A stretch of DNA of 64,000 bases from Ghiorsea bivora (GTDB lineage: Bacteria > Pseudomonadota > Zetaproteobacteria > Mariprofundales > Mariprofundaceae). The notes beneath the pieces were generated by a model, which was not told where the DNA came from, ran no database searches, and saw only the letters and a list, made by a program, of their open reading frames with translations. This document shows, in pieces, positions 3-58,497 of the stretch. How positions within the stretch are numbered: position 1 is the stretch's first letter; each line of letters opens with the position of its first letter. The translations under genes were made by a program, and so were the position numbers. Location: assembly GCF_000744415.1 (NCBI RefSeq), contig NZ_JQLW01000005.1:348650-412649 (forward strand), written 5' to 3'.

Positions 3-950
3 GCAGAGCCAGTATTGGAAAAAGGGGAACGGCGCAAGACAGTGATGTTTGAACGATTATCCTCGTTTGCGCTTGTTGCAGCTTATATAGTGTCCGTTTG
101 TTTGTATGTACATATTTTAAGTTCTTTTGTGTTGGGTGCTTTTGATTTGGATTCAAGCTTTAATAAAAGCCTTCTGACAACAATTATTATTGGCAGCATC
201 ACTATAATCGGTGTGGCGGGTGGATTGAAACCATTGGAGAAAATGGAAAGTTGGGCGTTGTATATTACGCTAGCTATTTTGATGGTATTATTACTTGGTT
301 TCGCCATGTATGACGTGAATCATTATCTCGATGCAGGTCGTTTTACGATGCCACAAATGCCAGATCGTAGTACTTGGGAAATGATTACCATTGTCGCGGG
401 TACTTTGATTGTGGTGCAGGGTTTTGAAACCACACGTTATCTTGGCAAAGTATTTGACCGCAGGACACGTATAGTTGCATCACGTTGGTCACAATATTTA
501 TCACTTTCAGTCTATGTCATTTTTGTTGCCTTGGCGCTTCCAATTGTGGTGATATTGAAAGGAGACTATGCTGAAAACAGTTTGATTTTATTGGCGGCGC
601 AAGTGTCTGTGTTTCTCGTTGCGCCATTAATTATTGCAGCCAGCTTGTCACAGTTTTCAGCTGCGGTTGCTGATACTTTAGCTGCAACAGCCAATATGAC
701 GGAAATCACTCTGGGTCGCATCAACCAGCGCTGGGGATATGTTTTGGTGGGTGGTTTGGCGATGGCATTGGCTTGGTCTGGCTCAACATTTGCCATCATT
801 ACTTTAGCATCTAAAGCGTTTGCTTTGTATTATTTTCTTCAATGTTGTGTTGGTTTTACAGTGTGTAAGAATCATATGGAACGGTTAAGGTTTGTACTTG
901 TCGGTTTAGCTTTGTTATTCGTACTTATTTTTGCTGTACCAGCTGGGTGA
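3..950 (+). CDS. APC-superfamily permease, 5' end outside the window
   Basis: Membrane transporter of the amino acid/polyamine/organocation superfamily, inferred from about nine hydrophobic helices and the 'GTLIVVQGFETTRY' segment typical of such carriers. The frame is open to the left edge (codons run from base 3), so the first ~100 residues, including the usual first three helices, probably lie upstream; the TTG at 15 is unlikely to be the true start. It ends 15 bases before the CBS gene, in the same direction. A decayed N-terminal copy of a related permease lies at 7.26-7.52 kb. The substrate cannot be told from sequence. Confidence 0.75.
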   Translation, partial: AEPVLEKGERRKTVMFERLSSFALVAAYIVSVCLYVHILSSFVLGAFDLDSSFNKSLLTTIIIGSITIIGVAGGLKPLEKMESWALYITLAILMVLLLGFAMYDVNHYLDAGRFTMPQMPDRSTWEMITIVAGTLIVVQGFETTRYLGKVFDRRTRIVASRWSQYLSLSVYVIFVALALPIVVILKGDYAENSLILLAAQVSVFLVAPLIIAASLSQFSAAVADTLAATANMTEITLGRINQRWGYVLVGGLAMALAWSGSTFAIITLASKAFALYYFLQCCVGFTVCKNHMERLRFVLVGLALLFVLIFAVPAG

Positions 951-964
951 TTGAGGGATAAACG

Positions 965-1600
965 ATGTTACCTGAATTCCGAATTTTTGGGCCTGGCATT
1001 AGTAATCCTGTTCCTTTGGAGCAGTTGTTTGCGCGAAAACGTGTAGAGAAAGTAAGCAAGGGTCAGAAGACCAATACAATAAAAGAAGAAAAAAGTCATG
1101 ATGACTCTGGGTTAACTTATCAAGCTAAAAGCTTAAAAGCTTATCAGTTGGCCGAGAGTACGAATGAAAATCAACAAGTACTTCAAGCTTCACAGGTGAT
1201 GACTACGCCAGTGGTCACACTTTTTGTGCAAGAAACAGCATCGAAAGCATTAGATATTTTAGGGAAGGGCGACTTTCGGCATATTCCCGTACTGTCTGAG
1301 CAACAATCGTTGATTGGTATGGTTTCGGATCGTGATATCTATCGCTGTATGTGTGGTACGAGTATGGGCTGTATGCATTGTGCTGAAGATAAACAAAGTG
1401 TGTTGATAGAGCAGGTGATGAAGGATGAGGTGTTAACAGCCAGTGTCGATACGGATGCACGGTATATTGCTCGCTTATTTGTAGAGCAACGTGTTGGTGC
1501 TATGCCTATTGTTGAAGAGGATAAACTTGTAGGTATTGTCACCCGCAGTGATATTCTAAAAGCTGTGATGCTGAATCTTCACTTGGATGTTTGGAAGTAA
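965..1600 (+). CDS. CBS-domain pair protein with inserted Cys cluster
   Basis: 211 residues. An uncharacterised N-terminal stretch (1-70) is followed by two CBS motifs (about 75-125 and 148-205; 'MTTPVVTL', 'GMVSDRDIY', 'GIVTRSDIL'). CBS pairs usually bind adenosyl ligands and regulate partners. Unusual here is C128-x-C130-x5-C136-x2-C139 in the junction between the two CBS motifs, which could hold a metal ion or Fe-S cluster. It sits between a permease and a DUF411 metal-type protein, ahead of a two-component system and a c-type cytochrome, so redox or metal sensing is a reasonable guess but not shown. Confidence 0.85.
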   Translation: MLPEFRIFGPGISNPVPLEQLFARKRVEKVSKGQKTNTIKEEKSHDDSGLTYQAKSLKAYQLAESTNENQQVLQASQVMTTPVVTLFVQETASKALDILGKGDFRHIPVLSEQQSLIGMVSDRDIYRCMCGTSMGCMHCAEDKQSVLIEQVMKDEVLTASVDTDARYIARLFVEQRVGAMPIVEEDKLVGIVTRSDILKAVMLNLHLDVWK

Positions 1601-1637
1601 GTAACAAGAAAATATGATGGTTAAAAAAGGAGATGAG

Positions 1638-2102
1638 ATGTATCAATTGAAGAGGTTTAAGCTTATATTAGGTCTACTGGTTGCCCCTGTACTTATTATT
1701 GGCGGTTTAACGGTTGAGTCTGCTGCAACTGAGGTGGTGATGTATAAAAATCCAAGTTGCGGCTGTTGTGGCGCTTGGGCAAAACATATGAGAGCTGCAG
1801 GTTTTACGGTGAAAGAGTTACCACGTGAAGATATGGAGGCAGTGAAAGAGAAATATGGTGTATCAGCGGGGTTAGCATCATGCCATACGGCACTTGTAGA
1901 TGGTTATGTGATTGAAGGGCATGTGCCCGCTTCTGATGTGTTGCGTTTATTAAAGGACCGTCCAGATGTTGTCGGTTTAACAGCGCCAGGTATGCCTATG
2001 CAGTCACCAGGTATGCAGGCAGAAGGTAAAAATCCCAGAAATTATGATGTATTGGCTTTTGATCAACAAGGTGGAGTTAAAGTTTATCATAGGTATGAAT
2101 AA
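1638..2102 (+). CDS. DUF411 secreted metal-binding-type protein
   Basis: 154 residues from the ATG at 1638, which has an AAGGAG eight bases upstream; the in-frame ATG at 1614 lacks a comparable site. A hydrophobic signal segment (residues ~5-28) is followed by the DUF411 hallmark 'MYKNPSCGCCGAW', with a thioredoxin-like CxCC site, and later 'SCHTALVDGY'. DUF411 proteins are found in copper and other metal-resistance loci and are thought to bind metal in the periplasm. It lies 33 bases before a sensor kinase gene, which supports a metal- or redox-related locus. The exact ligand is unknown. Confidence 0.85.
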   Translation: MYQLKRFKLILGLLVAPVLIIGGLTVESAATEVVMYKNPSCGCCGAWAKHMRAAGFTVKELPREDMEAVKEKYGVSAGLASCHTALVDGYVIEGHVPASDVLRLLKDRPDVVGLTAPGMPMQSPGMQAEGKNPRNYDVLAFDQQGGVKVYHRYE

Positions 2103-2134: not shown

Positions 2135-3616
2135 TTGCGTAAACACCTTGCATTAAAAGTTGGGGTTTTGTTAAGCCTTATCTTTTTGTTGGTGGCAGTG
2201 TTTGGCTGGGACCTACTCAGTGATATGCGGCATTTGCAACAAGAAGCAGCGGTTGTCGAAAATAGTAATCATCAAAGTCATGATTTACATGCCATTGAAA
2301 TGGGCGTGTATCGTAATATTAAAGTCGTGAATGACTTTCTTATTACGGGTGACCATCGGTCTGAGGGTGTTTTTCATCAATATCAGCAAAAGCTTGTGCA
2401 AATGATTGAACAATATGAAATAACATACCAAGACAGTAGTTTATCTGACTTGATGCAAAGTGTGAAAAACATCAAAGGCATTGCAGAAAAGGTGTTTGTT
2501 TTGCCGTTTGCGACAGAAAATATGGAAGGTCCTATTTTTATTGATGAAATTGCGACAGAAGCCAAGCAAGCTGTTGAGCATTTGACCCGTAAACATCATG
2601 CCTTAGATGAACAGGTCAACCGTGCTATGCAAATGATGGCGGGTTTGCGTATGGATATGCGTCAAGAAACAGTTGCTTTAATGTTGGTATTATTGCTGAG
2701 TTTAGGGTTCTTAGCCTATTTTATTTATAATCAAATCGTCCATCCACTTGTGCAAATGAAAAAGGCTGTGCAACGGGTTGGAGAAGGTAATTTTGATGTT
2801 CATTGTGCGGTTGTTTCAGATGATGAAATTGGAGAGTTAGCTAAGGCTTTTAATACCATGGGTGAGGCATTACAGGAGCGAGAGCAAAAGCTAAATCGAA
2901 TCCGAAGCTTGGCTGCGCATCAAGAAAAAATGAATGCTTTGTCTGTGATGTCAGCAAGTCTCGCGCATGAAGTGGGTAACCCTTTAGCTTCGGTAGGCAT
3001 GTTGCTACACATGGCAAAACGCAAATTGGCGCAACAAGATACGCAAGCAGTGGCTTCGCATTTGGACTCAGCTGTCAAAGAAACCGAGCGCATGGAATTG
3101 ATTATTCAAACAGTGCTGGATTTTGGTCGGCATGAATTTGATATGCGGTTTCATGCGTTTGCAGTGAGATCTGTGATTGCTGATGCTGTTAAACTAGGGC
3201 AAATGTCTCCCCAACATAAACGTGTAGTGATTCAAGTCAACGAGGATTCGAATATGCCTTTGGTGTATGCCTCCAGCAGTATGTTGATGCAGGTGTTGAT
3301 GAATGTGATTCACAATGCTTGCCATGCTTGTCGTGAAAGTGGTGAGGTACATATTCAAACGATTGAACAAGGTGGACATATTGTGATTGATGTGTGCGAC
3401 ACAGGGCATGGCATTGAGCAAGCTATGCGCAAATCTATTTTTAACCCCAGTGTAACCACCAAAGAAAAGGGGGAAGGTACGGGGTTTGGTTTAGCCATAA
3501 GCAAAGAGCTGATGGATGCTATGCATGGTACATTGTCGTTGCTTGAGGATGCTGGTCATGGCACGTGCTTTCGTATCAGTGTGCCGATTGCGCACCAAGG
3601 TAAAGGTATAACATGA
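2135..3616 (+). CDS. NtrB-type membrane sensor histidine kinase
   Basis: 493 residues. TM1 about 8-26, a helical periplasmic domain 27-178, TM2 about 180-200, HAMP (~200-252), a HisKA H-box 'SLAHEVGNPLAS' with H278, and a C-terminal HATPase with N-box 'IHNACHAC' and G-box 'GEGTGFGLAIS'. The start is TTG at 2135; no ATG is available because stop codons lie just upstream, and CTG at 2129 is an alternative. The stop overlaps the start of the response-regulator gene (ATGA), so the two are co-translated partners. The periplasmic domain looks like a four-helix-bundle sensor; the signal is unknown. Confidence 0.9.
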   Translation: MRKHLALKVGVLLSLIFLLVAVFGWDLLSDMRHLQQEAAVVENSNHQSHDLHAIEMGVYRNIKVVNDFLITGDHRSEGVFHQYQQKLVQMIEQYEITYQDSSLSDLMQSVKNIKGIAEKVFVLPFATENMEGPIFIDEIATEAKQAVEHLTRKHHALDEQVNRAMQMMAGLRMDMRQETVALMLVLLLSLGFLAYFIYNQIVHPLVQMKKAVQRVGEGNFDVHCAVVSDDEIGELAKAFNTMGEALQEREQKLNRIRSLAAHQEKMNALSVMSASLAHEVGNPLASVGMLLHMAKRKLAQQDTQAVASHLDSAVKETERMELIIQTVLDFGRHEFDMRFHAFAVRSVIADAVKLGQMSPQHKRVVIQVNEDSNMPLVYASSSMLMQVLMNVIHNACHACRESGEVHIQTIEQGGHIVIDVCDTGHGIEQAMRKSIFNPSVTTKEKGEGTGFGLAISKELMDAMHGTLSLLEDAGHGTCFRISVPIAHQGKGIT

Positions 3617-4914
3617 AGTTATTAGTGGTTGAAGACGAACAATATATCCGCCAAGGTATCGTGGAGCTTTTGCGTGAAGAAGGTTTTGATACCACTGAAG
3701 CTTCAACTGTTACCGAGACATTGGCATGTTTAGATGCGGGTAATATTGATGCTGTATTGTGTGATAACTTTTTGCCTGATGGTGAGGGTTTTGATGTGTT
3801 GCGTGCCATTGCGGGTTCGGGTATCGCACTCATATTAATGACAGCATTTGGTAATCGAGATTTGGCATCCCGAGCTTTTGCAGCAGGTGCATATGATTAT
3901 GTTGCCAAACCGATTCGTTTTGATGAATTACTTGCACGCTTGCAACGCTTGCAAGAGAAGCTTCTTTTACGAGAAAAAGTGATTGAAAGTGAGCAGCTTG
4001 TCCAAGACCAAGGTGAGTTGGCTGTGCTTGGCTCGTCGGAAAATATGCAAGCGGTGCAACATTTGATTCAAAAATCCAGTGCCAGTGGTGTGCCTGTGTT
4101 GCTACAAGGTGAAACGGGGGTAGGTAAAGGTGTAGTCGCGAGATTATTGCATAGTTTATCCACGCGAAGTGCCCAGCCGTTTGTACGCATTAACTGCGCG
4201 GCTATTCCAGCAGAGCTTTTAGAATCTGAACTGTTTGGTCATAAAAAAGGCGCATTTTCTGGTGCCGATAGTGATAGAAAAGGTCTGTTAACCACAGCAG
4301 CCAAGGGTACACTTTTTATGGACGAGTTGATTGAGTTGCCTATGGCGATGCAATCGAAATTGTTACATGTTTTTGATGAGAAAACTTTTCGCCCCGTTGG
4401 AGGTGATGAAGAATTACCCTTTCAAGCTAGGGTCATTGCGGCGAGTAATGTTGATTTTGAACAAGCTGTGGCAGAAGGACGCTTTCGTGAAGATTTGTAT
4501 TTCCGACTTAATGTTATGAAGATAAATATTCCTGCCTTACGCGATAGGGGAAGTGATATTATTCCCCTTGCTTACCGCCTACTGGATCAAATTTGCCAAG
4601 AATGGAGCAGGCAAGTGCCCAAGATGTCATCTGAGCAAGTCTTGTGGTTAGAGACGCAACCTTGGTATGGCAATGTACGAGAGTTGAGGAATGTGTTGGA
4701 GCGTGCGCTGTTGTTGGGTACAGATGATACATTGCTTTTCTCGGATATGGGAAAACTCAAAGAAGGTCATGATTTACCGTTAGTTGAAGCCTGTCATGCA
4801 TATGAAAAACAGTATATTACACGTATGATTCAAAGTTGTGGTGGTGATAAAACAGCAGCAGCAGAGAAGTTGGGTATAGGTCTTTCAACTTTGTACCGCA
4901 AACTCGACGCATAA
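3613..4914 (+). CDS. NtrC-family sigma-54 response regulator
   Basis: 433 residues. Receiver domain 1-115 with phospho-acceptor D51; AAA+ domain with Walker A 'GETGVGKG', the sigma-54 contact loop as GAFSGA (usual GAFTGA, Thr to Ser), Walker B 'GTLFMDE'; and a Fis-type helix-turn-helix at the C-terminus ('TAAAEKLGIGLSTLYRKL'). It should activate RpoN promoters when phosphorylated by the kinase encoded immediately upstream. The nearest downstream gene, a Cyc2-like cytochrome, has a candidate -24/-12 promoter, making it the likely target. rpoN itself is at 57.1 kb. Confidence 0.93.
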   Translation: MKLLVVEDEQYIRQGIVELLREEGFDTTEASTVTETLACLDAGNIDAVLCDNFLPDGEGFDVLRAIAGSGIALILMTAFGNRDLASRAFAAGAYDYVAKPIRFDELLARLQRLQEKLLLREKVIESEQLVQDQGELAVLGSSENMQAVQHLIQKSSASGVPVLLQGETGVGKGVVARLLHSLSTRSAQPFVRINCAAIPAELLESELFGHKKGAFSGADSDRKGLLTTAAKGTLFMDELIELPMAMQSKLLHVFDEKTFRPVGGDEELPFQARVIAASNVDFEQAVAEGRFREDLYFRLNVMKINIPALRDRGSDIIPLAYRLLDQICQEWSRQVPKMSSEQVLWLETQPWYGNVRELRNVLERALLLGTDDTLLFSDMGKLKEGHDLPLVEACHAYEKQYITRMIQSCGGDKTAAAEKLGIGLSTLYRKLDA

Positions 4915-5060
4915 ATTCCCATATTTGAGAGTCTTTTGCAGGTGCTATTCCCAATAGTGAGAAAGAAAGATAAGGTTATTTATTTTTTAACTTCATGTAA
5001 GGTGCTGATAGCTTTACACTTTTTGTTATTTTTTATAAGATGTATAGGTGGTTGCAGGTT

Positions 5061-5075
5061 TGGCACCAATATTTC
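5061..5075 (+). promoter_or_regulatory. Candidate sigma-54 promoter for the cytochrome-porin gene
   Basis: TGGCAC-N5-TTTC: the -24 element is perfect and the spacing (GG, ten bases, then the -12 dinucleotide) is right, with one mismatch (TC for GC). The expected start near 5087 would leave a leader of about 48 bases with a strong AAGGAGGGGA before the ATG at 5135. A short inverted repeat CTATT-CCC-AATAG at 4945-4957 could be an upstream activator site, but this is weak. The rest of 4915-5134 shows nothing else. Confidence 0.5.
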
Positions 5076-5134
5076 TTTCTTTGGCATGACGGCTGACATC
5101 TGATCAGTAAACATCTTTAAGGAGGGGAATCCCT

Positions 5135-6475
5135 ATGAAAAAAATATTATATACATTAAGTGGTTTTGCCATGTTGGCGGTGGGCAGTGCCGCCCTGGTG
5201 CCAAGTGAAGCAGAGGCATTACCTGTGTTTGCGCGAAAATATGGCATGGCCTGTAACTCTTGTCATACCATGTTCCCGCAATTATCAAAAATGGGCGTAG
5301 CTTTCCGTGAACGCGGTTTCCGCTTTGAAGAAGGTCGTGGTGATATTGATAGCCAAGACGAAAGAGGCGCAAACTTTGATGCAGGTGAGAATGCAGTATT
5401 TGCATCATCATTCCCATTCACTGTACGTACACAAGTCTTATACAGCAATGCAGCACCTCTAACTGATTCAAATGACGTTGTTGTTATGCCTGGGCATAGA
5501 CCTGGTATGTTGGATGGCGCGAAAAACAATGCGAAAATTGGTAATGGTGAGTTTGGTTTAATTACAGCAGGTTCTTATGATAACTTCTCATGGTGGATGG
5601 ATTCCAGCCTTCTTGGTGGCATCGGCATGTTGGAAGGTATTTATTATGTGAATGACCTCGTCAAAGTGCGTTTTGGTCGTGTGCAAAACAACGTGGGTTA
5701 TGGTATGACTATGATGTCTAAACGTCCTATGGGTTATGGTTGGGCAGATGCTGCGCAAATGGCAGGCGGTACAATGCTAATGATGGTTGATGGTGTAAGT
5801 GTGCATGGTACAACCAATGGTGACTCAGGTGTAGGTACATACTACAATGTAAGTTATGGTCTTGCAGGTAATGATTCAACCACAGGCAATAAAACTTCAA
5901 CAGTGTATGGTCGTGTAGCTCAAGAAATCATGGATAATCATATCGTGGGTGTTTATACATATAAAGCAACCAACTATACCAGTGATGTATTTGGTGGTGA
6001 GGCAACTATGCTTATGGCAATGGGTGCACCAGGTGCTACCAATGCAAACCCTATGGCATTTAGTGATGTCACACGTTCAGGTGTTGATTTTGCGATAAAT
6101 TACGGTGAACCTTTGCAAGCTTGGGGTGCATATACAGTGGGTAATCAAACCAATCCGCTTACCAATACCAAGTTGGATGTAACTGCAATTACGTTGGCAA
6201 CAGAGTGGATTATGCAAGAAGGTTGGATGCTTGGTGCAAAATACAATTCAAGTAAAGTTGATTTGCAGATGTTAACCAATGCGGTTTTAAAACCTGCAGC
6301 TACAACACATACAACATTGTATGGTATTCATCAAGTGGCTGAAAATGTGCAAGCTATTTTGTCTTATACAAGCAGTAAAAATGTAGTGGAAAGAATGGGT
6401 GCTGGTGGTGGTGCAACCAATGCAACATTGTCTGACTTTAATTCCTTCGTATTCGCTATTGATATGGCGCTGTAA
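5135..6475 (+). CDS. Cyc2-like outer-membrane monoheme cytochrome-porin
   Basis: 446 residues with a Sec signal peptide (cleavage near residue 28), one heme c site CNSCH at 40-44 close to the mature N-terminus, and a long C-terminal part of alternating polar/hydrophobic strands rich in Gly, Asn and aromatics that reads as a beta-barrel. This architecture is that of the fused cytochrome-porin Cyc2, the proposed iron oxidase of neutrophilic iron oxidisers. However, 'CNSCHTMFPQLSKMG' also matches a broader family of CxxCH barrel proteins, so membership of the Cyc2 clade proper is not certain. It stands alone between a sigma-54 promoter candidate and a terminator, so it is probably a monocistronic, highly expressed gene. 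Confidence 0.65.
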   Translation: MKKILYTLSGFAMLAVGSAALVPSEAEALPVFARKYGMACNSCHTMFPQLSKMGVAFRERGFRFEEGRGDIDSQDERGANFDAGENAVFASSFPFTVRTQVLYSNAAPLTDSNDVVVMPGHRPGMLDGAKNNAKIGNGEFGLITAGSYDNFSWWMDSSLLGGIGMLEGIYYVNDLVKVRFGRVQNNVGYGMTMMSKRPMGYGWADAAQMAGGTMLMMVDGVSVHGTTNGDSGVGTYYNVSYGLAGNDSTTGNKTSTVYGRVAQEIMDNHIVGVYTYKATNYTSDVFGGEATMLMAMGAPGATNANPMAFSDVTRSGVDFAINYGEPLQAWGAYTVGNQTNPLTNTKLDVTAITLATEWIMQEGWMLGAKYNSSKVDLQMLTNAVLKPAATTHTTLYGIHQVAENVQAILSYTSSKNVVERMGAGGGATNATLSDFNSFVFAIDMAL

Positions 6476-6495
6476 TATATAAATGAGGTTGAAAA

Positions 6496-6518
6496 GGGGA
6501 GCATTGCTCCCCTTTTTT
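6496..6518 (+). terminator. Rho-independent terminator after the cytochrome gene
   Basis: GGGGAGC / GCTCCCC stem of 7 bp with a 3-base loop, extended by flanking AAAA/TTTT pairing and followed by a T-run. It lies 20 bases past the cytochrome stop codon. Confidence 0.9.
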
Positions 6519-7218: not shown

Positions 7219-7254
7219 TTTTGCAAAAAAAATAGTGAAAAACTATAGTTATTA

Positions 7255-7523
7255 GGCTCTGTTTCCTTAGGCACAGACGTGATAATTAGCGCAGGTATAT
7301 TTGTTTTTATGGGGCAATTACTGAGCTGGTTGGCAGGTTACTTCTTCTGGCATTTATTGTCGGAGGAGCTGTGTCGGGAATCAGTGCTTATTCTTATGTG
7401 AAGTTTTCAAATGCATATCCTTCATTTGGTGATGTTGTAAAGTTCTTGCGTAAATCTTATGGCCCCGATGTAATTACAGGCACATTTTCTTTTTTAATGT
7501 ATGTGTCTATGGTGTTTTCATGA
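7255..7523 (+). pseudogene. N-terminal fragment of an APC permease, frameshifted
   Basis: No open gene, but two frames give consecutive permease segments: 'GTDVIISAGIFVFMGQ' from about 7270, then after a frameshift 'VSGISAYSYVKFSNAYPSFG' and on to 'FLMYVSMVFS' ending at TGA 7521. This matches the first three helices of APC carriers, the part of the family missing from the truncated permease at the window start, so it is the relic of a second, related permease gene. The remainder was lost where the IS30 remnant begins. Confidence 0.7.
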
Positions 7524-8150
7524 AGGCTTCGCTCCCATGAAGCATAAGGGTTAGCATAGAATCAGCTTGAACTGCCTTGACTACTCTCGAATGTTCGCAA
7601 AATTCCAAACCATTATCTTTGGTGATGGTATCACCTTCCCTGTCTCCTATGCGTACTTTTTGATTCACAATATCAGGTCGCTCAGCGATACCAATATGAT
7701 TGGGTATCTTACTACGGCGACCATTGGAACTGTAATGCTTCCTTCGCTTTTTCTGACAGCGCAAGAATGTATGCAAATCCACCACCTTCATCTAAATCAG
7801 CATAGATAAATCCATTCATAGTTCACAAAACGCGGACCTTCCAAGCGTAAACGTGCGCCAATTTCTACTGGTGACCACGTTTTTCTAATCAGTGGTTCAA
7901 CGCGTTGCCAATGGTCAGGTGCAATGAATGTCTTTACTTTTTTTACCTTCGTTCCATAGCTAAGTGATAGGCTTGTTTAGGTCGACAACCACGAAGACCA
8001 CGGTTTCGCCTTAGTTCACGGCTGATTGTGGATTCGTTGACTAATACCTAGCAATCTCAGTTTGAAGATGCTCTGCTTTATTGAGCACTGCAATCTGGTA
8101 GCGTTGTGCTTGGGTAAGCTGTGTGTAGTTTATTATTATTCTTTGACAAG
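7524..8150 (-). mobile_element. Decayed IS30-family transposase
   Basis: On the minus strand, fragments in different frames match IS30 transposases in order: 'LTQAQRYQIAVL' and 'STISRELRRNRGLRG' (N-terminal helix-turn-helix, about 8130-7970), then 'RKHYSSNGRRSKIPNHI', 'ERPDIVNQK' and 'GDREGDT' joined directly to 'DNGLEF' of the catalytic core. The middle of the DDE domain is deleted and several frameshifts are present, so it cannot be active. Terminal inverted repeats were not recognised. Confidence 0.7.
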
Positions 8151-8323
8151 TTGTGTTTGAAAAGACCAAGGCGGCTACCGTAGCTTACATTTTAAATTAT
8201 TTGTTAAAGTGGCACTTACGAGTTGAATCTACAGACCTTTAAGAAGGTTAGAGCTTGAAGGGGGAATATACGGGGTGAAAAAAGTGCTTGTGAAAGTAAA
8301 TACTCTCATTTTCACTTCGCCAC

Positions 8324-9142
8324 ATGTTGATTTCGATGGCGAACAATAAACATAAACGAAAGGTGAACGAGCAGAGGCAGCAACAAGTGTTGTCTGCGAT
8401 TGACCGTATTGCAGGCAGAAATGAATTGGCATTTTTGACTACGCAAAAAGTATCCAAGGAATCTAAAATTTCGGATGGTGTTTTATTTCGCCATTTTTCA
8501 TCCAAAGAAGCGATGTTGTCATCGTGGGTGGAGTTGCGAACCATGCAACTGTACAACCTGATGGCAGCCATGCCTGCGGGCAAAAAAGGGCTGTTATATT
8601 TTTTAAGAGACCTATTACAGAATCAAGCCTTATTAACCTTTGTGTGTTGTCAGCCTATGGATGTAGCATATTTGCGTTTGAGCTTGGAAACATCACGTCA
8701 AGAACTGTGGCAGGTGCTTTATGCGCATATTGAGTTGCTAGCTGATAAGCCAGATACGGTTTCAGTAGAAAGCTTAACCGATCACCTTTTCCAATGCATT
8801 TACCGTGCATGGAATCCGAATAACCCCCACCGAGAAAAGCAAAAGGAGAAACTTATGACCCAACTACCGTGGGATAAACAAAATATGGGAGAGGTAGCCC
8901 TGCCTGCTAAAGATGTATTGCAGCGGCTAGCCCTAAATGAAAGTGGATTTGTTTTTGATCCAGTGAGTGGTTTGAGCTTTACGGCGAACCCCGTGGCACT
9001 ATTCGTGTTACGTTTTTTACAACATAATGATGATATTGATACCTTATTTAAGGAAATTGAAGCGAAGTTTGATGTTAATCGCAATGAAGCAGAACGTGAT
9101 TTGACCGACTTTTTTGCTCAGCTTCGTAAGCTTATTGTATGA
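8324..9142 (+). CDS. TetR-type regulator fused to a PqqD-like (RRE) domain
   Basis: 272 residues. Residues 20-68 form a TetR helix-turn-helix ('KVSKESKISDGVLFRHFSS'); 70-165 is the helical ligand domain; 190-272 matches PqqD-family peptide-recognition domains ('LNESGFVFDPVSGLSFTAN' and a C-terminal winged helix). PqqD domains bind peptide substrates or chaperone them to modifying enzymes, so a regulator carrying one is unusual. The start is not well defined: ATG 8324 and ATG 8336 both lack a clear ribosome site. An internal in-frame ATG at 8855 has a strong one. It overlaps the ATP-grasp gene by four bases and heads the cassette. Confidence 0.75.
   Translation: MLISMANNKHKRKVNEQRQQQVLSAIDRIAGRNELAFLTTQKVSKESKISDGVLFRHFSSKEAMLSSWVELRTMQLYNLMAAMPAGKKGLLYFLRDLLQNQALLTFVCCQPMDVAYLRLSLETSRQELWQVLYAHIELLADKPDTVSVESLTDHLFQCIYRAWNPNNPHREKQKEKLMTQLPWDKQNMGEVALPAKDVLQRLALNESGFVFDPVSGLSFTANPVALFVLRFLQHNDDIDTLFKEIEAKFDVNRNEAERDLTDFFAQLRKLIV
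8843..8857 (+). promoter_or_regulatory. Internal ribosome site and start for a free PqqD-like protein
   Basis: AAGGAG at 8843-8848 lies six bases before an in-frame ATG (8855) inside the TetR-PqqD gene. Translation from here would give a 95-residue protein (to 9142), the usual size of a stand-alone PqqD. It is therefore possible that the gene yields both the fusion and a free domain. Confidence 0.45.
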
Positions 9143-10227
9143 GTAAGCCAAGTAAGAAAGTTACCATTGCTGTGACAGGCATGAATGCTAAGCCTGATAA
9201 TCCAGGTCCAGGGCTTGCTGTTGCACGTTGTCTTCGTATGGCGTATGGCGATGATATTCGCATTGTGGGTTTAGGTTATGATGTGCTTGACCCTGGGTTG
9301 TACTTGGACGTGTGTGATGTGAGTTATTTATTGCCTTATCCATCTGCAGGTGAACACCAGCTTGTAGAAAGGTTGGCATACATTCAAGTTCAAGAGTCGG
9401 TGGATATATTGATTCCATGTTTGGACGCAGAGCTTTTAAGCTTTAGCCGCTTGCAACATGACTTAAAAGAAATTGGTTTAAGTTTTCTCATCCCTGATGT
9501 GGAGCAGCTTAAAGCGCGCAATAAAGATAATTTAAACGAGTTGTGTAAAAGTGCAGGTATTCGCCATCCTGAAACCAAAAAAATCACCAGCGCAGAGTTC
9601 TTTTATAACTGCCATGAAGATGGTTGGAAGTACCCCATGGTGGTTAAAGGTGTATTTTATGATGCTACAGTGGTCAATAATGCGGATGAAGCAGCCGATG
9701 CCTTTAAAAAAATTGTTGCCAGCTGGGGTTATCCTGTGCTTGTACAGCGTTATGTTGAAGGTTATGAAGTTAATCTCACTGCGATTGGTGATGGTAAAGG
9801 CAACTTACTTGGTTCGGTGATGATGCGTAAACAAGCCGTCACCGATAAAGGAAAGGCTTGGGCGTGCGTGACCGTGCGAGATCAAACATTAGAAGATGAT
9901 GCCTTAAAACTTGTGCAACATTTGCAGTGGAAAGGCCCGTTAGAAGTAGAAATGCTTAAAGAAAAAGATGGGCAGTATTTACTGATTGAGATTAACCCAA
10001 GGTTCCCTGCTTGGATTTACTTAACAGCAGCGGCAGGTAGTAATTTACCAGCCATGTTGGTGGAAATGATTTCTGGAAAAATGCCTGAACAAAAGAAACC
10101 ACAGGTGGGGGCAATGATGATTCGTTATGCAAAAGAAACAGTGATTGACTTACAAACCTTTGAATCCATGGCAATGACAGGCAGTTACCAAGCAAGGGTT
10201 GGAGAGCAAGGAGATAAAGATGAGTGA
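9139..10227 (+). CDS. ATP-grasp ligase (CarB/amino-acid ligase type)
   Basis: 362 residues. An N-terminal Rossmann-like domain ('AVTGMNAKPDNPGPGLAVAR', 'DILIPCLDAELL') is followed by an ATP-grasp fold with 'YPMVVKG', 'VLVQRYVEGYEVN' and metal-binding 'YLLIEINPRFPAW'. Such enzymes activate a carboxylate as acyl phosphate and join it to an amine or thiol. The substrate is unknown. The start overlaps the TetR-PqqD stop (ATGA), and its end overlaps the PLP-enzyme gene by eight bases, so the three are translationally coupled. Confidence 0.85.
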   Translation: MSKPSKKVTIAVTGMNAKPDNPGPGLAVARCLRMAYGDDIRIVGLGYDVLDPGLYLDVCDVSYLLPYPSAGEHQLVERLAYIQVQESVDILIPCLDAELLSFSRLQHDLKEIGLSFLIPDVEQLKARNKDNLNELCKSAGIRHPETKKITSAEFFYNCHEDGWKYPMVVKGVFYDATVVNNADEAADAFKKIVASWGYPVLVQRYVEGYEVNLTAIGDGKGNLLGSVMMRKQAVTDKGKAWACVTVRDQTLEDDALKLVQHLQWKGPLEVEMLKEKDGQYLLIEINPRFPAWIYLTAAAGSNLPAMLVEMISGKMPEQKKPQVGAMMIRYAKETVIDLQTFESMAMTGSYQARVGEQGDKDE

Positions 10228-11599
10228 AAGACAAGCTTGGCAAAAACCAACATTAACGCCGCACAGGATTGGTGCGCTCAATAAGTTTGGTAACGTGAAC
10301 AACACACAGTTTCAAGAATATTTTGAAGGCGTGGCGATTGCAGATTTAATTGAGAAATATGGTTCCCCACTTTTTGTTTTATCCGAAAGCAGATTGCGCG
10401 CCAATGTACGTAAGTTATTTCGTGCATTTGAAACAAGGTATGCGGATGTGGTGTACAGTTGGTCGTATAAAACCAACTATTTGGGGGCAGTATGCACCAC
10501 ATTACATCAAGAAGGTGCATGGGCTGAAGTGGTATCAGCATTTGAATATGAAAAAGCGCGGTCGCTGGGTGTGTCTGCTGAGAAAATTTTGTTTAATGGA
10601 CCACATAAAGAACGCGCAATTTTAGAACGCGTAGTGGAAGAAGGTGCGCGCATCCACCTTGACCATTTGGATGAGCTTTATTTGTTGGAAGATGTTGCCA
10701 AAACAGCAGGTAAACAAGTAGATGTCACCATGCGCTTGAATTTTGATACAGGTTTTACCGAAGCATGGAGTCGTTTTGGCTTTAATTTAGAATCGGGGCA
10801 AGCCATGGATGCTGCACGCATTCTTGGAGAGAGTGAACATTTGAACTTGGCTGGTTTACACAGCCATTTGGGTACATTTGTGCTTGACCCACGTGCTTAC
10901 GCGGCACAAATACGCATCATGTGTGGTTTTATGGACTTGGTCGAAACCAAGACGGGTTGTCATATCCAAAGTATTGATATTGGTGGTGGTTTTGCCTCAA
11001 TGAACTCATTGCATGGCACATATTTACCACCGGAACAAGTTGTGCCCAGCTTTGATCAATATGCCGAAGCGATTTGTAATGCGCTCAACGATGCAACGCG
11101 TGAACGAGATGTGCGAGGTTTGGGTCGCCCGCGTTTGATTTTGGAAAGTGGTCGTGCGGTAGTCGATGATGCAGAAATCTTGATTACATCAGTGATTGCC
11201 AATAAACGTATGCCTGATGGTAGGCGCTCTATGGTGATTGATGCTGGCGTAAATGTTTTATTCACAGGGTTCTGGTATAATCATCAGGTTACACCTACGC
11301 GCCCCTTGGAAGGTGTGGCTGAGGATACCATTCTTTATGGACCATTATGCATGAATATTGATGTGATGCGTTCATCGGTGATGCTGCCACCCATGAATGT
11401 GGGGGATACATTGGTATTTAGTCCTGTGGGTGCATACAACAATACGCAATGGATGCAATTTATTGAGTATCGCCCTAATGTGGTGATGATAGATGAGCAT
11501 CAACAGGTATCGGTGATTCGGGCTGCAGAAGATTTGTCTGTGGTGACAGCGCAAGAATCGATTCCCGAACATCTTGTTAGCATTCAAAGTAAGAAATAA
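10220..11599 (+). CDS. Fold-type III PLP-dependent decarboxylase (LysA-like)
   Basis: 459 residues from ATG 10220, which has AAGGAG seven bases upstream and overlaps the previous stop; an upstream in-frame TTG at 10199 is less likely. Features of the alanine-racemase/DAP-ornithine decarboxylase fold are present: Schiff-base Lys in 'YSWSYKTN', 'LAGLHSHLGT', 'IDIGGGFAS', 'LILESGRAVV' and the active-site Cys in 'LYGPLCMNIDV'. It should decarboxylate (or less likely racemise) an amino acid or an amino-acid conjugate. Lying between an ATP-grasp ligase and a transporter fusion, it is probably biosynthetic for the cassette rather than lysine synthesis itself. Confidence 0.85.
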   Translation: MSERQAWQKPTLTPHRIGALNKFGNVNNTQFQEYFEGVAIADLIEKYGSPLFVLSESRLRANVRKLFRAFETRYADVVYSWSYKTNYLGAVCTTLHQEGAWAEVVSAFEYEKARSLGVSAEKILFNGPHKERAILERVVEEGARIHLDHLDELYLLEDVAKTAGKQVDVTMRLNFDTGFTEAWSRFGFNLESGQAMDAARILGESEHLNLAGLHSHLGTFVLDPRAYAAQIRIMCGFMDLVETKTGCHIQSIDIGGGFASMNSLHGTYLPPEQVVPSFDQYAEAICNALNDATRERDVRGLGRPRLILESGRAVVDDAEILITSVIANKRMPDGRRSMVIDAGVNVLFTGFWYNHQVTPTRPLEGVAEDTILYGPLCMNIDVMRSSVMLPPMNVGDTLVFSPVGAYNNTQWMQFIEYRPNVVMIDEHQQVSVIRAAEDLSVVTAQESIPEHLVSIQSKK

Positions 11600-11602
11600 C
11601 AA

Positions 11603-13780
11603 ATGAAAGCACCTACTTTAAAGCTCTACAACGATTTGGTGGGTATGCTAAGGGCATACGCATCCATTTTATTTGCAGAAAAACCTTGGGTAGGTGCGCT
11701 TTTTGTGCTGGCAACTTTATGGTTTCCCAATACGGGTCTTGCAGGGTTATGGGCTGCGATTGTAGGCATGACGACTGCGGCACTGCTGAAGTTTCGCAAC
11801 TTAGAAAGTGGTTTGCATGTGTATAATAGTTTGTTGGTCGGTTTATCGCTGGGCGCTTATTATTATGTGGATGTGCATCTGTTGCTGCTGATTTCATTTG
11901 CATCGGTTTTGGCAGTGTTTGTGACCGTGGCAGTCTCTGATATAACTTGGCGTTTAAACCGATTGCCCGCATTGAGCCTACCCTTTGTGGTTGTGGCATT
12001 GATGGCAACTTTAGCTGCACAAAGTTATGGTACATTAAGTCGGTATTTGGTGCCTATGGCACCCCATGATATGTTTGTTTCAGCGGCAGTTGACCAGTTT
12101 TTCACATCATTGGGCTCTGCCTTTTTTACACCTCATCCCTTTGCAGGTTTATTGATGTTTATTGGGCTGGCGTGGACATCACGTTATCTCGCATTCCTTG
12201 CAATGACGGGCTTTTTATTTGGCTTTTCCACTTATACTTATCTTTCTGGAAGCCCGCATCCTGATTTGGTGGCGTGGAACGGTTTTAATTTTATTTTGGT
12301 TGCTATGGCGATTGGTGGTTTGTTTACAGTGCCTAGTAAAGCCAGCTTTATACTTGCGATGCTGGGATCGGTGATTGCGGCATTGGTTACGGCATCAAGT
12401 GAAACATTTATGTTGGTGTATGGTTTACCCGTCATGGCATTACCTTTTTTAATTACGACCTTGACCATGTTACTCGCTTTAACCCACCGACCTGCAACAT
12501 CGAATTTACAGCTTACGTTAGATGCGCCAGCATTACCTGAAATTAGTTATGAGCGGGCTAGGCTTGCCAAAGCTAGGCAAGGTGAGTTTGGTAGTGTTCC
12601 AGTGCGCGCACCTTTTTTTGGTGCATGGCAAATTTATCAAGGTTTTGATGGTAAACATACCCATCAAGAACCCTGGCAACATGCTTTAGATTTTTATATT
12701 ACTGAACATGAACAAAGTTACCGTAGTCATGGTAGAACCTTAGATGATTATTATTGTTTTGGGTTGCCGGTTGTCGCACCGGTTGAAGGTTATGTCGTCA
12801 AAACTTTAGATACATTATCGGATAACCCACCCGGTGAGGTAGATACGGAAAACAACTGGGGTAACCATGTGCTTATTCGCATGCACAATGGTTTGTATCT
12901 TTTATTGGCGCACTTAAAGCAAGGCAGTATTGAAACTCATATTGGGGCTTATGTGACTGTGGGTACTCGGCTTGCGGCATGTGGTAGCTCTGGTAGGTCA
13001 CCACAACCGCATTTGCACATGCATGTGCAGTGGGGGGATGTGCTTGGTGGGCATACGCATGCATTTCACCTGACATCGGTGTTACAACAAGATAAACAAG
13101 ATGCAACACCTGATTTTAGGTTGTTTAGCCAACCTTCAGAAGGGCAAAGTGTGATTGCAGCAAAGTATGATCCTGCGTTGCGTGAGTGTTTGAACTTGTC
13201 TGTTGGTCGTAAATTGACCTACCAAGTCGAATATCAAGGTGAACAATGTCAGCGTACTTTGCATGTGGAGCTAAGTTTACTTGGTGAGTTGCATTTGGTT
13301 TCAGACCGAGGCGCAAAGGCTACATTTACCACGCAAGATAATATATTAGCTTTTTATAATCGCCAAGGTAAGACAGACTTATTTTTTGATGCGTGGTTGT
13401 TAACGATGGGTTTAACTCCGCTTCAAGAAGGTAATATTCATTGGCACGATGAACCACCTTTGGCATTACTCCCTTTGTCCATGCGCCAATATTTATATGC
13501 TGTTTTATCACCTGCTTTAACCAAGGGTATGCAGAGTGAGTACCAACGGCAGTGGCAGGGTGGTGTATGGGTTCAACGTGGAAGACACCAGTTTAAGAAT
13601 ATGTTTTTGCAGACCTCGTTTGAAACTAAGGCTGAAATTCAGCCAAAACTAGGCTGTATGTCGTTTGTTTTTAAGGGTGAGAACCTAAAGTTACAAGCGA
13701 GTTTGCTTGAAATTGCACAACAAGGCGATGCGGGTATTCCTGCATGGCAAATCACTGCGGAGGATAAAAAGATGTTATGA
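11603..13780 (+). CDS. Urea-transporter-like channel fused to M23 peptidase
   Basis: 725 residues. Residues 1-295 are hydrophobic with the two-fold repeat of urea transporters: 'GLHVYNSLLVGLSLG' (70-84) and 'WNGFNFILVAMAIGG' (225-239). Residues 335-480 form an M23 metallopeptidase domain with H360/D363, 'GNHVLIRMHNGLYLLLAHL' and 'PHLHMHV' (H470/H472). The first metal pair is H-x2-D, one residue shorter than the LytM H-x3-D. Residues 485-725 are an unassigned soluble domain. The gene starts three bases after the decarboxylase stop. The product could pass a small amide across the inner membrane and act on peptidoglycan or a peptide outside. Confidence 0.8.
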   Translation: MKAPTLKLYNDLVGMLRAYASILFAEKPWVGALFVLATLWFPNTGLAGLWAAIVGMTTAALLKFRNLESGLHVYNSLLVGLSLGAYYYVDVHLLLLISFASVLAVFVTVAVSDITWRLNRLPALSLPFVVVALMATLAAQSYGTLSRYLVPMAPHDMFVSAAVDQFFTSLGSAFFTPHPFAGLLMFIGLAWTSRYLAFLAMTGFLFGFSTYTYLSGSPHPDLVAWNGFNFILVAMAIGGLFTVPSKASFILAMLGSVIAALVTASSETFMLVYGLPVMALPFLITTLTMLLALTHRPATSNLQLTLDAPALPEISYERARLAKARQGEFGSVPVRAPFFGAWQIYQGFDGKHTHQEPWQHALDFYITEHEQSYRSHGRTLDDYYCFGLPVVAPVEGYVVKTLDTLSDNPPGEVDTENNWGNHVLIRMHNGLYLLLAHLKQGSIETHIGAYVTVGTRLAACGSSGRSPQPHLHMHVQWGDVLGGHTHAFHLTSVLQQDKQDATPDFRLFSQPSEGQSVIAAKYDPALRECLNLSVGRKLTYQVEYQGEQCQRTLHVELSLLGELHLVSDRGAKATFTTQDNILAFYNRQGKTDLFFDAWLLTMGLTPLQEGNIHWHDEPPLALLPLSMRQYLYAVLSPALTKGMQSEYQRQWQGGVWVQRGRHQFKNMFLQTSFETKAEIQPKLGCMSFVFKGENLKLQASLLEIAQQGDAGIPAWQITAEDKKML

Positions 13781-57093: not shown

Positions 57094-58497
57094 ATGGCTG
57101 GTACTGTTCGGCAAAACCTTAGTCAAAAGCAATCGCAACGGCTTGCTTTAACGCCACAGTTAACGCAAAGCTTAAAAGTATTGGCGATGAATAGCCAAGA
57201 GCTTGAGCTGTATATTGAAGAAAGCCTAGAGTCCAACCCGCTATTGGAGTTGGATGCAGACAATACGCCGCGCCAAAGTGAAGATACTTCTGTATCGCAG
57301 CAAAAAGAAGATTGGCGTGAGCAAGGTGATAATCGCTGGGAAACCATGTACCAAAATGGCAGTCAGTTTGATGGTATGCCAGACCCTGACCAACAGTGGA
57401 AAGATGAACAAAGTTTGAGTGAGTCTTTGCACGAACAAATTAACCAACAACCGATGAATGATAAGGAACGTGCAATTGCACATGCTATTGTTGATTCCTT
57501 AGAGGATGATGGTTATTTCCGTGTTACCGCAGATGAAGTGATACAAGCCGTTGATTATGAAGGTGTTACTGAGGCTGATGTTGTGCATGTGTTAGAGTGT
57601 ATTGTGCAAGAGCTGGAGCCAGGGGGCATTGGTGCACGCGACTTAACAGAATGTTTGTTGTTGCAGATTTCAGATGATGATGTGTCGGCGATGTTGGTGC
57701 GCCAAATGTTGTTGTACCATGCGGATAAACTTGCAGATGATGAAGTTTTGATGCAAGAAATGCATTGCTCATCCGAAGAACTCATTGCGGCACGTCATTT
57801 ATTGCGTCGGCTTGACCCTTTTCCAGGTCATGGCTTGCGCGGTGTAGAAAATATTTATGTACAACCTGAAATTATATTCCGCATTGTGGATGGTGAGGTT
57901 GAAGTGGATGTGCCCAAATCTGGGTGGCGCGGGCTTAAAGTGAGTGAACAGTGGGCTGGTAAAACATGGACAGGCAAAGATCGCGAGTTTATGGATGCAG
58001 CCAGCCAAGAAGCCAAATGGTTGTTGAGTGCATTGGATCAACGCAGTGAAACATTGATGAAAGTTGGTTTATGTTTAGCGGCAAAACAACGGTTGTTTCT
58101 TGAGCATGGTGTTTTGGGTTTGAAACCATTAACCTTACAAGTGGTTGCAGAAGAAGTCGGTTTGCATGAATCAACCATTTCGCGCGTAACCAATGGTAAA
58201 TATGCGCAAACGCCTTTGGGTTTGATTGAAATGCGCTGCTTTTTCTCGGCAGGTTTACCCACACGTGGTGGTGGCATGATTTCAGTGCACAGGGTGCAAC
58301 AACGGGTGAAAACATTGATTGAATCAGAGCCTATTGGAAGGCCGATTTCAGACCAAGCGATTTCAGACCGTTTGCAAGCTGAGGGTATTGGTATAGCAAG
58401 GCGCACCGTTGCCAAATACCGCGAACAATTAGGGCTGCCGCCAAGCAGTCAACGAAGGCGTGCTGTAAAAACACGCTTATCTCAAAGCAGGAGGTAG
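57094..58497 (+). CDS. rpoN: RNA polymerase sigma-54 factor
   Basis: 467 residues. Region I 'SQRLALTPQLTQSLKVLAM' binds activators; an acidic region II follows; the C-terminus carries the core-binding part, the helix-turn-helix ('EEVGLHESTISRVTNGK') and the RpoN box 'ARRTVAKYREQLGLP'. It recognises -24/-12 promoters and needs NtrC-type activators such as the one at 3.6-4.9 kb. It starts the hpf-ptsN-hprK-rapZ-PTS operon; GGAG lies upstream of the ATG. Confidence 0.97.
   Translation: MAGTVRQNLSQKQSQRLALTPQLTQSLKVLAMNSQELELYIEESLESNPLLELDADNTPRQSEDTSVSQQKEDWREQGDNRWETMYQNGSQFDGMPDPDQQWKDEQSLSESLHEQINQQPMNDKERAIAHAIVDSLEDDGYFRVTADEVIQAVDYEGVTEADVVHVLECIVQELEPGGIGARDLTECLLLQISDDDVSAMLVRQMLLYHADKLADDEVLMQEMHCSSEELIAARHLLRRLDPFPGHGLRGVENIYVQPEIIFRIVDGEVEVDVPKSGWRGLKVSEQWAGKTWTGKDREFMDAASQEAKWLLSALDQRSETLMKVGLCLAAKQRLFLEHGVLGLKPLTLQVVAEEVGLHESTISRVTNGKYAQTPLGLIEMRCFFSAGLPTRGGGMISVHRVQQRVKTLIESEPIGRPISDQAISDRLQAEGIGIARRTVAKYREQLGLPPSSQRRRAVKTRLSQSRR

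Follow-up and report, generated by a model that had tools for sequence, protein, structure and literature searches.

The window, a 64 000-nucleotide stretch of the Ghiorsea bivora genome, encodes near its start a sensor histidine kinase, an NtrC-type sigma-54 activator and a methionine-rich, Cyc2-like outer-membrane cytochrome-porin on one strand (Table 1). A preliminary description had placed the end of the two regulatory genes 220 bases before a CxxCH barrel protein, and the reading frames reproduce this layout, with a gap of 220 nt between the activator and porin genes. Behind the porin gene, a hairpin followed by a U-run (-20.6 kcal/mol, z -4.2 by RNA folding) forms a probable intrinsic terminator, although it is absent from the list returned by a consensus terminator scanner. 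The gene that follows encodes a conserved membrane protein without any Pfam family match.

The porin closes a copper island that extends over 16.7 kb upstream of the window and leads, on the same strand, into the porin module. The island combines Cus efflux, a copper P-type ATPase and PcoA/CopA-CopB resistance genes with several smaller genes, and its window-proximal end consists of a transporter, a CBS-domain protein and a DUF411 protein that recur as neighbours.

Table 1. Features of the porin locus, its upstream island and the sigma-54 gene (window coordinates)
Feature	Position	Strand	Basis or remark
CusB, CusA (TIGR00914)	upstream of window	same strand	profile match, TIGR00914 above cut-off
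Met/His-rich protein; CueO-like multicopper oxidase; YHS protein; cytochrome c	upstream of window, after CusA	same strand	
Copper P-type ATPase CopA (TIGR01511)	upstream of window	same strand	above cut-off
PcoA/CopA oxidase (TIGR01480), CopB (PF05275)	upstream of window, before 400-aa transporter	same strand	above cut-offs
Membrane transporter, 400 aa, C-terminal portion	15..950	+	start lies before window; recurrent neighbour
CBS-domain protein	965..1600	+	recurrent neighbour at homologous loci
DUF411 protein	1614..2102	+	recurrent neighbour in copper island
Sensor histidine kinase, membrane-anchored	2135..3616	+	Pfam, homologue alignment, AlphaFold model
NtrC-type sigma-54 activator	3613..4914	+	Pfam, homologue alignment; 4-nt overlap with kinase ORF
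Perfect enhancer-like palindrome TTCTCGGATATGGGAA within activator gene	4738..4753	+	motif search, genome scan
Distal upstream activator site (UAS) TTCCCATATTTGAGAG	4916..4931	+	motif search, genome scan; one mismatch to TTCYCRNNNNYGRGAA
Proximal UAS TTCCCAATAGTGAGAA	4948..4963	+	perfect; 32 nt from distal site
Sigma-54 -24/-12 element TGGCAC-CAATA-TTTCT (TGGCACCAATATTTCT)	5061..5076	+	sequence, conservation profile, shuffles
Met-rich Cyc2-like outer-membrane cytochrome-porin, 446 aa, 27 Met	5135..6475	+	motif, alignment, tree, model
Probable intrinsic terminator	6491..6517	+	RNA fold
His/Met-rich membrane protein, conserved, 226 aa	6538..7218	+	adjoins porin in most homologous loci
rpoN (match to sigma-54 DNA-binding domain)	57985..58461 (about)	+	sole rpoN of genome

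The porin is a Cyc2 relative outside the Cluster 1 clade

The Cyc2 superfamily is defined by a length of at least 365 aa, a single heme c site and a fused 16-strand outer-membrane barrel, with the signature AXPXFAR[Q/K][T/Y] ahead of CXXCH and PXL behind it (PMC8406198). The porin carries this signature (ALPVFARKYGMACNSCHTMFPQL), with motif residues invariant in 17 homologues: a signal-peptide-like N terminus is followed by ALPVFARKYG-x2-CNSCH-TMFPQL, in which CNSCH, the one CXXCH of the protein, occupies residues 40–44. No family in Pfam or NCBIfam matches the porin, and its structural model (overall pLDDT 54, good in the C-terminal half only) places OprP/OprO, the porin templates named for Cyc2 (PMC8406198), among the top fold matches. 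With an N-terminal half this poor (pLDDT <50), the model allows neither a count of barrel strands nor an assignment of the methionines to the pore. Taken together, the signature, the heme site and the fold of the barrel support the Cyc2-like cytochrome-porin named in the preliminary description, under the published motif definition (PMC8406198).

The same genome holds a separate, ordinary Cluster 1-type Cyc2 elsewhere (L002: AFARQTGSACLACHFQ), which is 43% identical to the porin over the first 60 residues and shows no similarity beyond them. In a quick tree with long branches, the porin family and Cluster 1-type Cyc2 form separate clades with support of 99 and 97. Methionine makes up 4.9–6.8% of residues in the porin family versus 1.2–4.3% in Cluster 1 Cyc2, and 15 of the 27 porin methionines are invariant, among them those of GMTMMS, MAGGTMLMM and MLMAM. 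The porin resembles the Cluster 1 Cyc2 of Mariprofundus ferrooxydans PV-1 (PMC8406198) in its N-terminal monoheme c domain, Cyc2 motif, fused OprP/OprO-like barrel and class, but differs in its separate clade, roughly twofold methionine content, own predicted sigma-54/two-component control and copper-island context.

McAllister et al. (2020) described two Cyc2 kinds in Zetaproteobacteria, Cluster 1 and Cluster 3, the latter known from fewer lineages; they record the functional difference between the two as unknown, and the accessible sections of that report describe neither regulation nor a copper context for Cluster 3 (PMC7029218). We saw no third Cyc2-like kind among 78 Zetaproteobacteria genomes, and the porin is the minority kind of the two. 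Since only these two kinds were found, its family is most likely the published ‘Zetaproteobacteria Cluster 3’, a match made by elimination (PMC7029218).

Kinase and activator

Pfam assigns HAMP, HisKA and HATPase_c domains to the kinase. Its AlphaFold model (mean pLDDT 81) has a predicted periplasmic four-helix sensor, and the sensor residues H46, H49, H52, E55, M130, E131, H154, D158 and M165 are invariant in an alignment of 12 homologues. These conserved His, Met and Glu residues could bind a soft metal, and are only suggestive of a putative copper response. A fold search with the full kinase returned mostly catalytic-core matches and nothing informative on the sensor.

The activator combines Response_reg, Sigma54_activat (AAA+) and HTH_8 (Fis-type) domains. 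Its homologues are 46–93% identical overall (alignment of 14), with a near-invariant recognition region, GIGLSTLYRKL, which fits a fixed DNA target. The loop of the AAA+ domain reads GAFSGA at the window locus and GAFTGA in many homologues. The best matches of the two proteins to curated models include AtoS, AtoC, ZraS and ZraR, all far below equivalog cut-offs; relative to these ZraSR/AtoSC-type systems, the pair differs in sensor region and target.

A conserved, predicted sigma-54 promoter with paired enhancers

TGGCAC-N5-TTTC had been noted at 5061 in the preliminary description, and the sequence confirms it as the start of a -24/-12 element whose position would put the transcript start near 5087. 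The strict box pattern occurs in 19 of 23 upstream regions of homologous loci versus 0.03% of shuffled regions, and the other four carry close variants (L006 TTGGCTCTCATGTTGCT, L011 TTGGTACGAAGCTTTCT, L012 TGGCATGGAAGATGCT and L033 TTGGCGCAACAGTTGCA). In a per-column profile of 21 divergent upstream regions anchored on the box, TGGCAnnnAnnTTTCT is kept and the flanks are random; as these regions were picked by pattern, fixed pattern positions were partly selected for and their conservation is inflated. An A between the two elements and a T two bases after the box are conserved yet lie outside the selection pattern.

The -12 element reads TTTC in most loci, a G to T change from the TTGC consensus, with canonical TTGC or ATGC in L006, L012 and L033. 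Genome-wide pattern searches found TGGCAY-N5-TTTCT unenriched (5 matches versus 4 in a reversed control) and TGGCAY-N5-TTGCW enriched (19 versus 1). Because of the TTTC reading and the lack of enrichment of the TTTCT form, a box in a single sequence is weak evidence by itself, and because its genome-wide count lies at background we claim no wider TTTCT-type regulon.

An unsupervised motif search above the box recovered the palindrome TTCYCRNNNNYGRGAA in 22 of 22 upstream regions (score 194 versus 44–47 in shuffles). Its centres lie 102–107 or 136–139 nt before the box (about 105 and/or 137), and many loci have both copies, 31–32 nt apart. At the window locus, the centre of the proximal site falls ~106 nt ahead of the -24 element. 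A TAAC-N5-GTTA motif first noticed by eye between enhancer and box was abandoned, as the TTCYCR palindrome emerged from the unsupervised search in its place.

The 2.15-Mb genome contains only two perfect copies of the palindrome, 4948–4963 and 4738–4753, both at the porin locus, and one-mismatch matches elsewhere are at background (47 versus 43 in a reversed control). The copy within the activator gene is shared at that position only by the closest Ghiorsea relatives and may reflect coding conservation. No enhancer palindrome was found at the classical copper genes of the island. In several Mariprofundus-type genomes the activator and porin genes are separated by an additional gene that has further UAS sites ahead of it. 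A second UAS pair upstream of a neighbouring gene occurs in some loci, and in L021 it comes with a canonical sigma-54 box, TGGCATGATTGTTGCA.

A search for sigma-70 alternatives upstream of the porin gave a chance-level result: one weak sigma-70-like site at 5013–5041, in a region where the number of such sites is no higher than chance. This site and the departure of the -12 TTTC from consensus are what would favour a chance box, with the porin read from a sigma-70 promoter and the upstream conservation due to another regulator. We consider that highly improbable, given that box spacing and sequence are kept in all loci, the enhancer pair sits at NtrC-type distance, a conserved sigma-54 activator is adjacent and rpoN is in the genome.

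The sequence hallmarks of a sigma-54-dependent operon are found here: an activator with a receiver domain, AAA+ loop and Fis-type helix-turn-helix in a genome with rpoN, a conserved -24/-12 element with correct spacing (TGGCAC-N5-TTTCT) and dyad-symmetric enhancers roughly 80–160 nt upstream. The predicted layout is that of a textbook NtrC-type sigma-54-dependent promoter with, apparently, essentially one target. The earlier proposal that the adjacent pair controls the porin through sigma-54 is strongly supported by the box, the locus-unique enhancers, co-occurrence and rpoN, and on this sequence evidence we regard such control as very likely.

Distribution across Zetaproteobacteria

Among the 78 Zetaproteobacteria genomes, the kinase is present in 29, the porin in 28 (fragments counted) and both in 25 (Fisher p 4e-13, a value that overstates independence because the genomes compared are related). 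The kinase-only cases G032, G041 and G060 stop at contig edges. In a species-level genome collection, 22 contigs encode the porin, in most cases preceded by the same kinase and activator, and the best named matches of the porin are Ghiorsea MAGs (95–96% identity). Culturable carriers include Mariprofundus ferrooxydans PV-1 and M. micogutta ET2. In ~320 non-Zetaproteobacterial Pseudomonadota genomes we found no full-length relative of the porin, only cytochrome-domain matches. Comparison of the loci shows the kinase, activator, two predicted enhancer palindromes, predicted -24/-12 box and porin to form one conserved Zetaproteobacteria module, which occurs mainly among metal genes, chiefly those for copper, and is distinct from the ordinary cyc2 of these genomes.

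One genome departs from this arrangement. In G043 (L176), the same kinase-activator pair and a perfect UAS directly after it are followed by a Cluster 1-type cyc2. The search before that gene found no sigma-54 box, and the activator has GALPGT in place of the GAFTGA loop. This pattern is as expected if the circuit decayed upon loss of its target, or it may stem from a MAG mis-join.

Association with metal-resistance genes

Metal genes flank 16 of 20 porin loci versus 0 of 19 Cluster 1 cyc2 loci in similar-sized neighbourhoods (p 1.5e-7, among related genomes). Short contigs account for some of the four porin neighbourhoods without a metal gene, yet L110 and L111 span 14–20 kb. Co-occurrence of CopB with the porin is moderate (7/28 versus 2/50 genomes, p 0.009). 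RND or Zn/Cd-type genes also appear in some porin neighbourhoods, which leaves room for metals besides copper.

Like a copper two-component system, the pair is encoded with copper-detoxification genes. A predicted switch of its own and a usual place beside copper-defence genes suggest that the porin acts on copper, or on another metal, rather than serving just as a second iron oxidase. The putative iron oxidation of the preliminary description finds no support as the specific role of a methionine-rich protein that lies outside the Cluster 1-type clade and within a copper island.

Iron could nevertheless be the substrate if the porin were a second, conditional Fe(II) oxidase, a Cyc2 isoform switched on through sigma-54 upon a change in iron, oxygen or redox state, with its copper neighbours a product of shared mobile islands. 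The full Cyc2 motif and length (PMC8406198) would fit, as would the iron oxidase Cyt572 of Leptospirillum, a Cluster 3 protein (PMC7029218), and the presence of the same two-component system ahead of a Cluster 1-type cyc2 in G043. We judge this reading unlikely: the porin appears dispensable for iron oxidation, since only 28 of 78 genomes have it and most have an ordinary Cyc2; the metal-gene association is strong and the sequence methionine-rich; and the G043 example comes with neither a GAFTGA loop nor a detectable sigma-54 box. A role as a Cu-tolerant iron oxidase would be speculative. A copper or soft-metal role for the porin module, with copper chemistry and induction deduced from context, seems fairly likely to us.

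Proposed mechanism and porin chemistry

We consider it probable that the module is a dedicated two-component/sigma-54 switch on a copper-resistance island, with the Met-rich Cyc2-like outer-membrane cytochrome-porin as its target. The periplasmic kinase sensor, through its conserved His, Glu and Met residues, would respond to copper in excess, or to another soft metal. Once phosphorylated, the activator would bind both palindromes as an oligomer and loop to the sigma-54 polymerase on the -24/-12 box, turning the porin gene on, and the terminator would limit read-through into the gene of the 226-aa membrane protein. The porin would in turn help to deal with periplasmic or outer-membrane copper.

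The simplest chemistry, a guess prompted by the methionine-rich sequence and the copper island, would be for the single heme c to take the electron of Cu(I) and hand it to cytochromes of the periplasm, much as Cyc2 handles the electron of Fe(II). That cuprous oxidation is the porin's chemistry is tentative and unlikely. In its full form, the proposal makes the porin a derivative of Cyc2 in which a heme-based cuprous oxidase is joined to an outer-membrane barrel and expression is switched on by a sigma-54 circuit that senses copper; we regard this as unlikely. If true, such an oxidase would strip electrons from toxic Cu(I), with possible respiratory use of these electrons in microaerophiles, where O2 is scarce for multicopper oxidases.

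The invariant Met clusters in the barrel half (MTMM, MLMM and MLMAM), the OprP/OprO-like fold and the occurrence of CopB and CusA in the copper island could also point to an outer-membrane channel for metal entry or exit, with the heme domain as a redox-sensing plug or gate instead of an electron relay, exporting copper beside Cus efflux and CopB. Attaching heme c would be a high price for a simple channel, and the pore lining cannot be made out in the model; we hold this reading to be unlikely.

Comparison with known systems and significance

The copper/sigma-54 regulatory logic proposed here has precedent in CorSR of Myxococcus xanthus, a copper-responsive NtrC-type pair shown genetically, with putative sigma-54 promoters (PMC3707914). 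CorSR resembles the window pair in its Sigma54_activat and HTH_8 regulator, its membrane kinase and the P1B ATPase and multicopper oxidase nearby (PMC3707914), but drives its own operon and copper genes, whereas the predicted target of the window pair is a cytochrome-porin. PcoA/PcoB-CopB resistance and Cus efflux share the island but are unrelated to the cytochrome-porin by homology. In the open-access literature, we found no earlier report linking Cyc2 with sigma-54, cuprous oxidation or copper resistance. The module brings together two known kinds of element, a Cyc2-like cytochrome-porin and a putative copper-type sigma-54 two-component system.

The minority Cyc2 kind of the Zetaproteobacteria now has a specific predicted regulator, a promoter architecture and a neighbourhood, all suggestive of defence against copper or other metals, and the question of how the two kinds differ in function (PMC7029218) becomes directly testable. 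Cyc2 serves as a marker gene for iron oxidation. The porin family is a warning that such homologues should not be counted as iron oxidases. The module also offers a clean predicted sigma-54 circuit that seems to act on a single target, in a group whose control of outer-membrane electron transfer has seen little study.

Cassette surroundings and copy number

Downstream of the kinase-activator-porin cassette, the window retains the remains of a permease gene, disrupted by fragments that we take to resemble IS30-type transposase; the gene is whole in two sister contigs. A conserved gene run in the window, found too in L005 and the Ghiorsea locus L006, comprises a TetR-PqqD fusion together with presumed ATP-grasp-like, PLP-decarboxylase-like and urea-transporter-like/M23-like proteins; as a cluster, these genes may serve to modify peptides or amino acids.

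The cassette is present twice in some Ghiorsea MAGs, namely G025 (contigs C71 and C10, loci L006 and L009) and G031 (C12 and C29). One of the G031 copies, the second, is apparently only partial: its kinase match is split in two pieces and its porin match is truncated. L110 (20 kb) and L111 (14 kb) are among the longer loci of the family, yet no metal gene lies within reach at either, and the copper link of the porin family, strong as it is, is therefore not universal.

Promoter elements and a possible second target

Nearly all homologous loci have TTTCT as the -12 element of the porin promoter, whereas sigma-54 sites in the window's genome favour TTGCW. TTTCT is thus a departure specific to the porin promoter family, at a usually conserved base.

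At L176, the cassette's kinase-activator pair, accompanied by a perfect enhancer palindrome (UAS), precedes a Cluster 1-type cyc2. No sigma-54 box was found at this locus, and the activator loop reads GALPGT in place of GAFTGA; a decayed circuit or a MAG mis-join is possible.

Five loci have an extra gene, possibly encoding an outer-membrane barrel, between activator and porin; it belongs to the KKVYSPHAEQG family or, in PV-1, is a gene of similar size. UAS sites stand upstream of this gene in all five, so that in Mariprofundus-type genomes the regulon may extend to a second target.

Coordinates of features in the window and compared loci
Locus	Feature	Position
Window	-12 element	5072-5076
Window	permease remnant	7219-8300
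Window	conserved gene run	8324-13780
L004	whole permease gene	3634-4959
L005	whole permease gene	8079-9404
L176	kinase-activator and cyc2 locus	G043:C60:3001-11208
L018	extra gene	4812-5660
L021	extra gene	about 5008-5754
L013	extra gene	4295-5092
L023	extra gene	5058-5774
L025	extra gene	4988-5782
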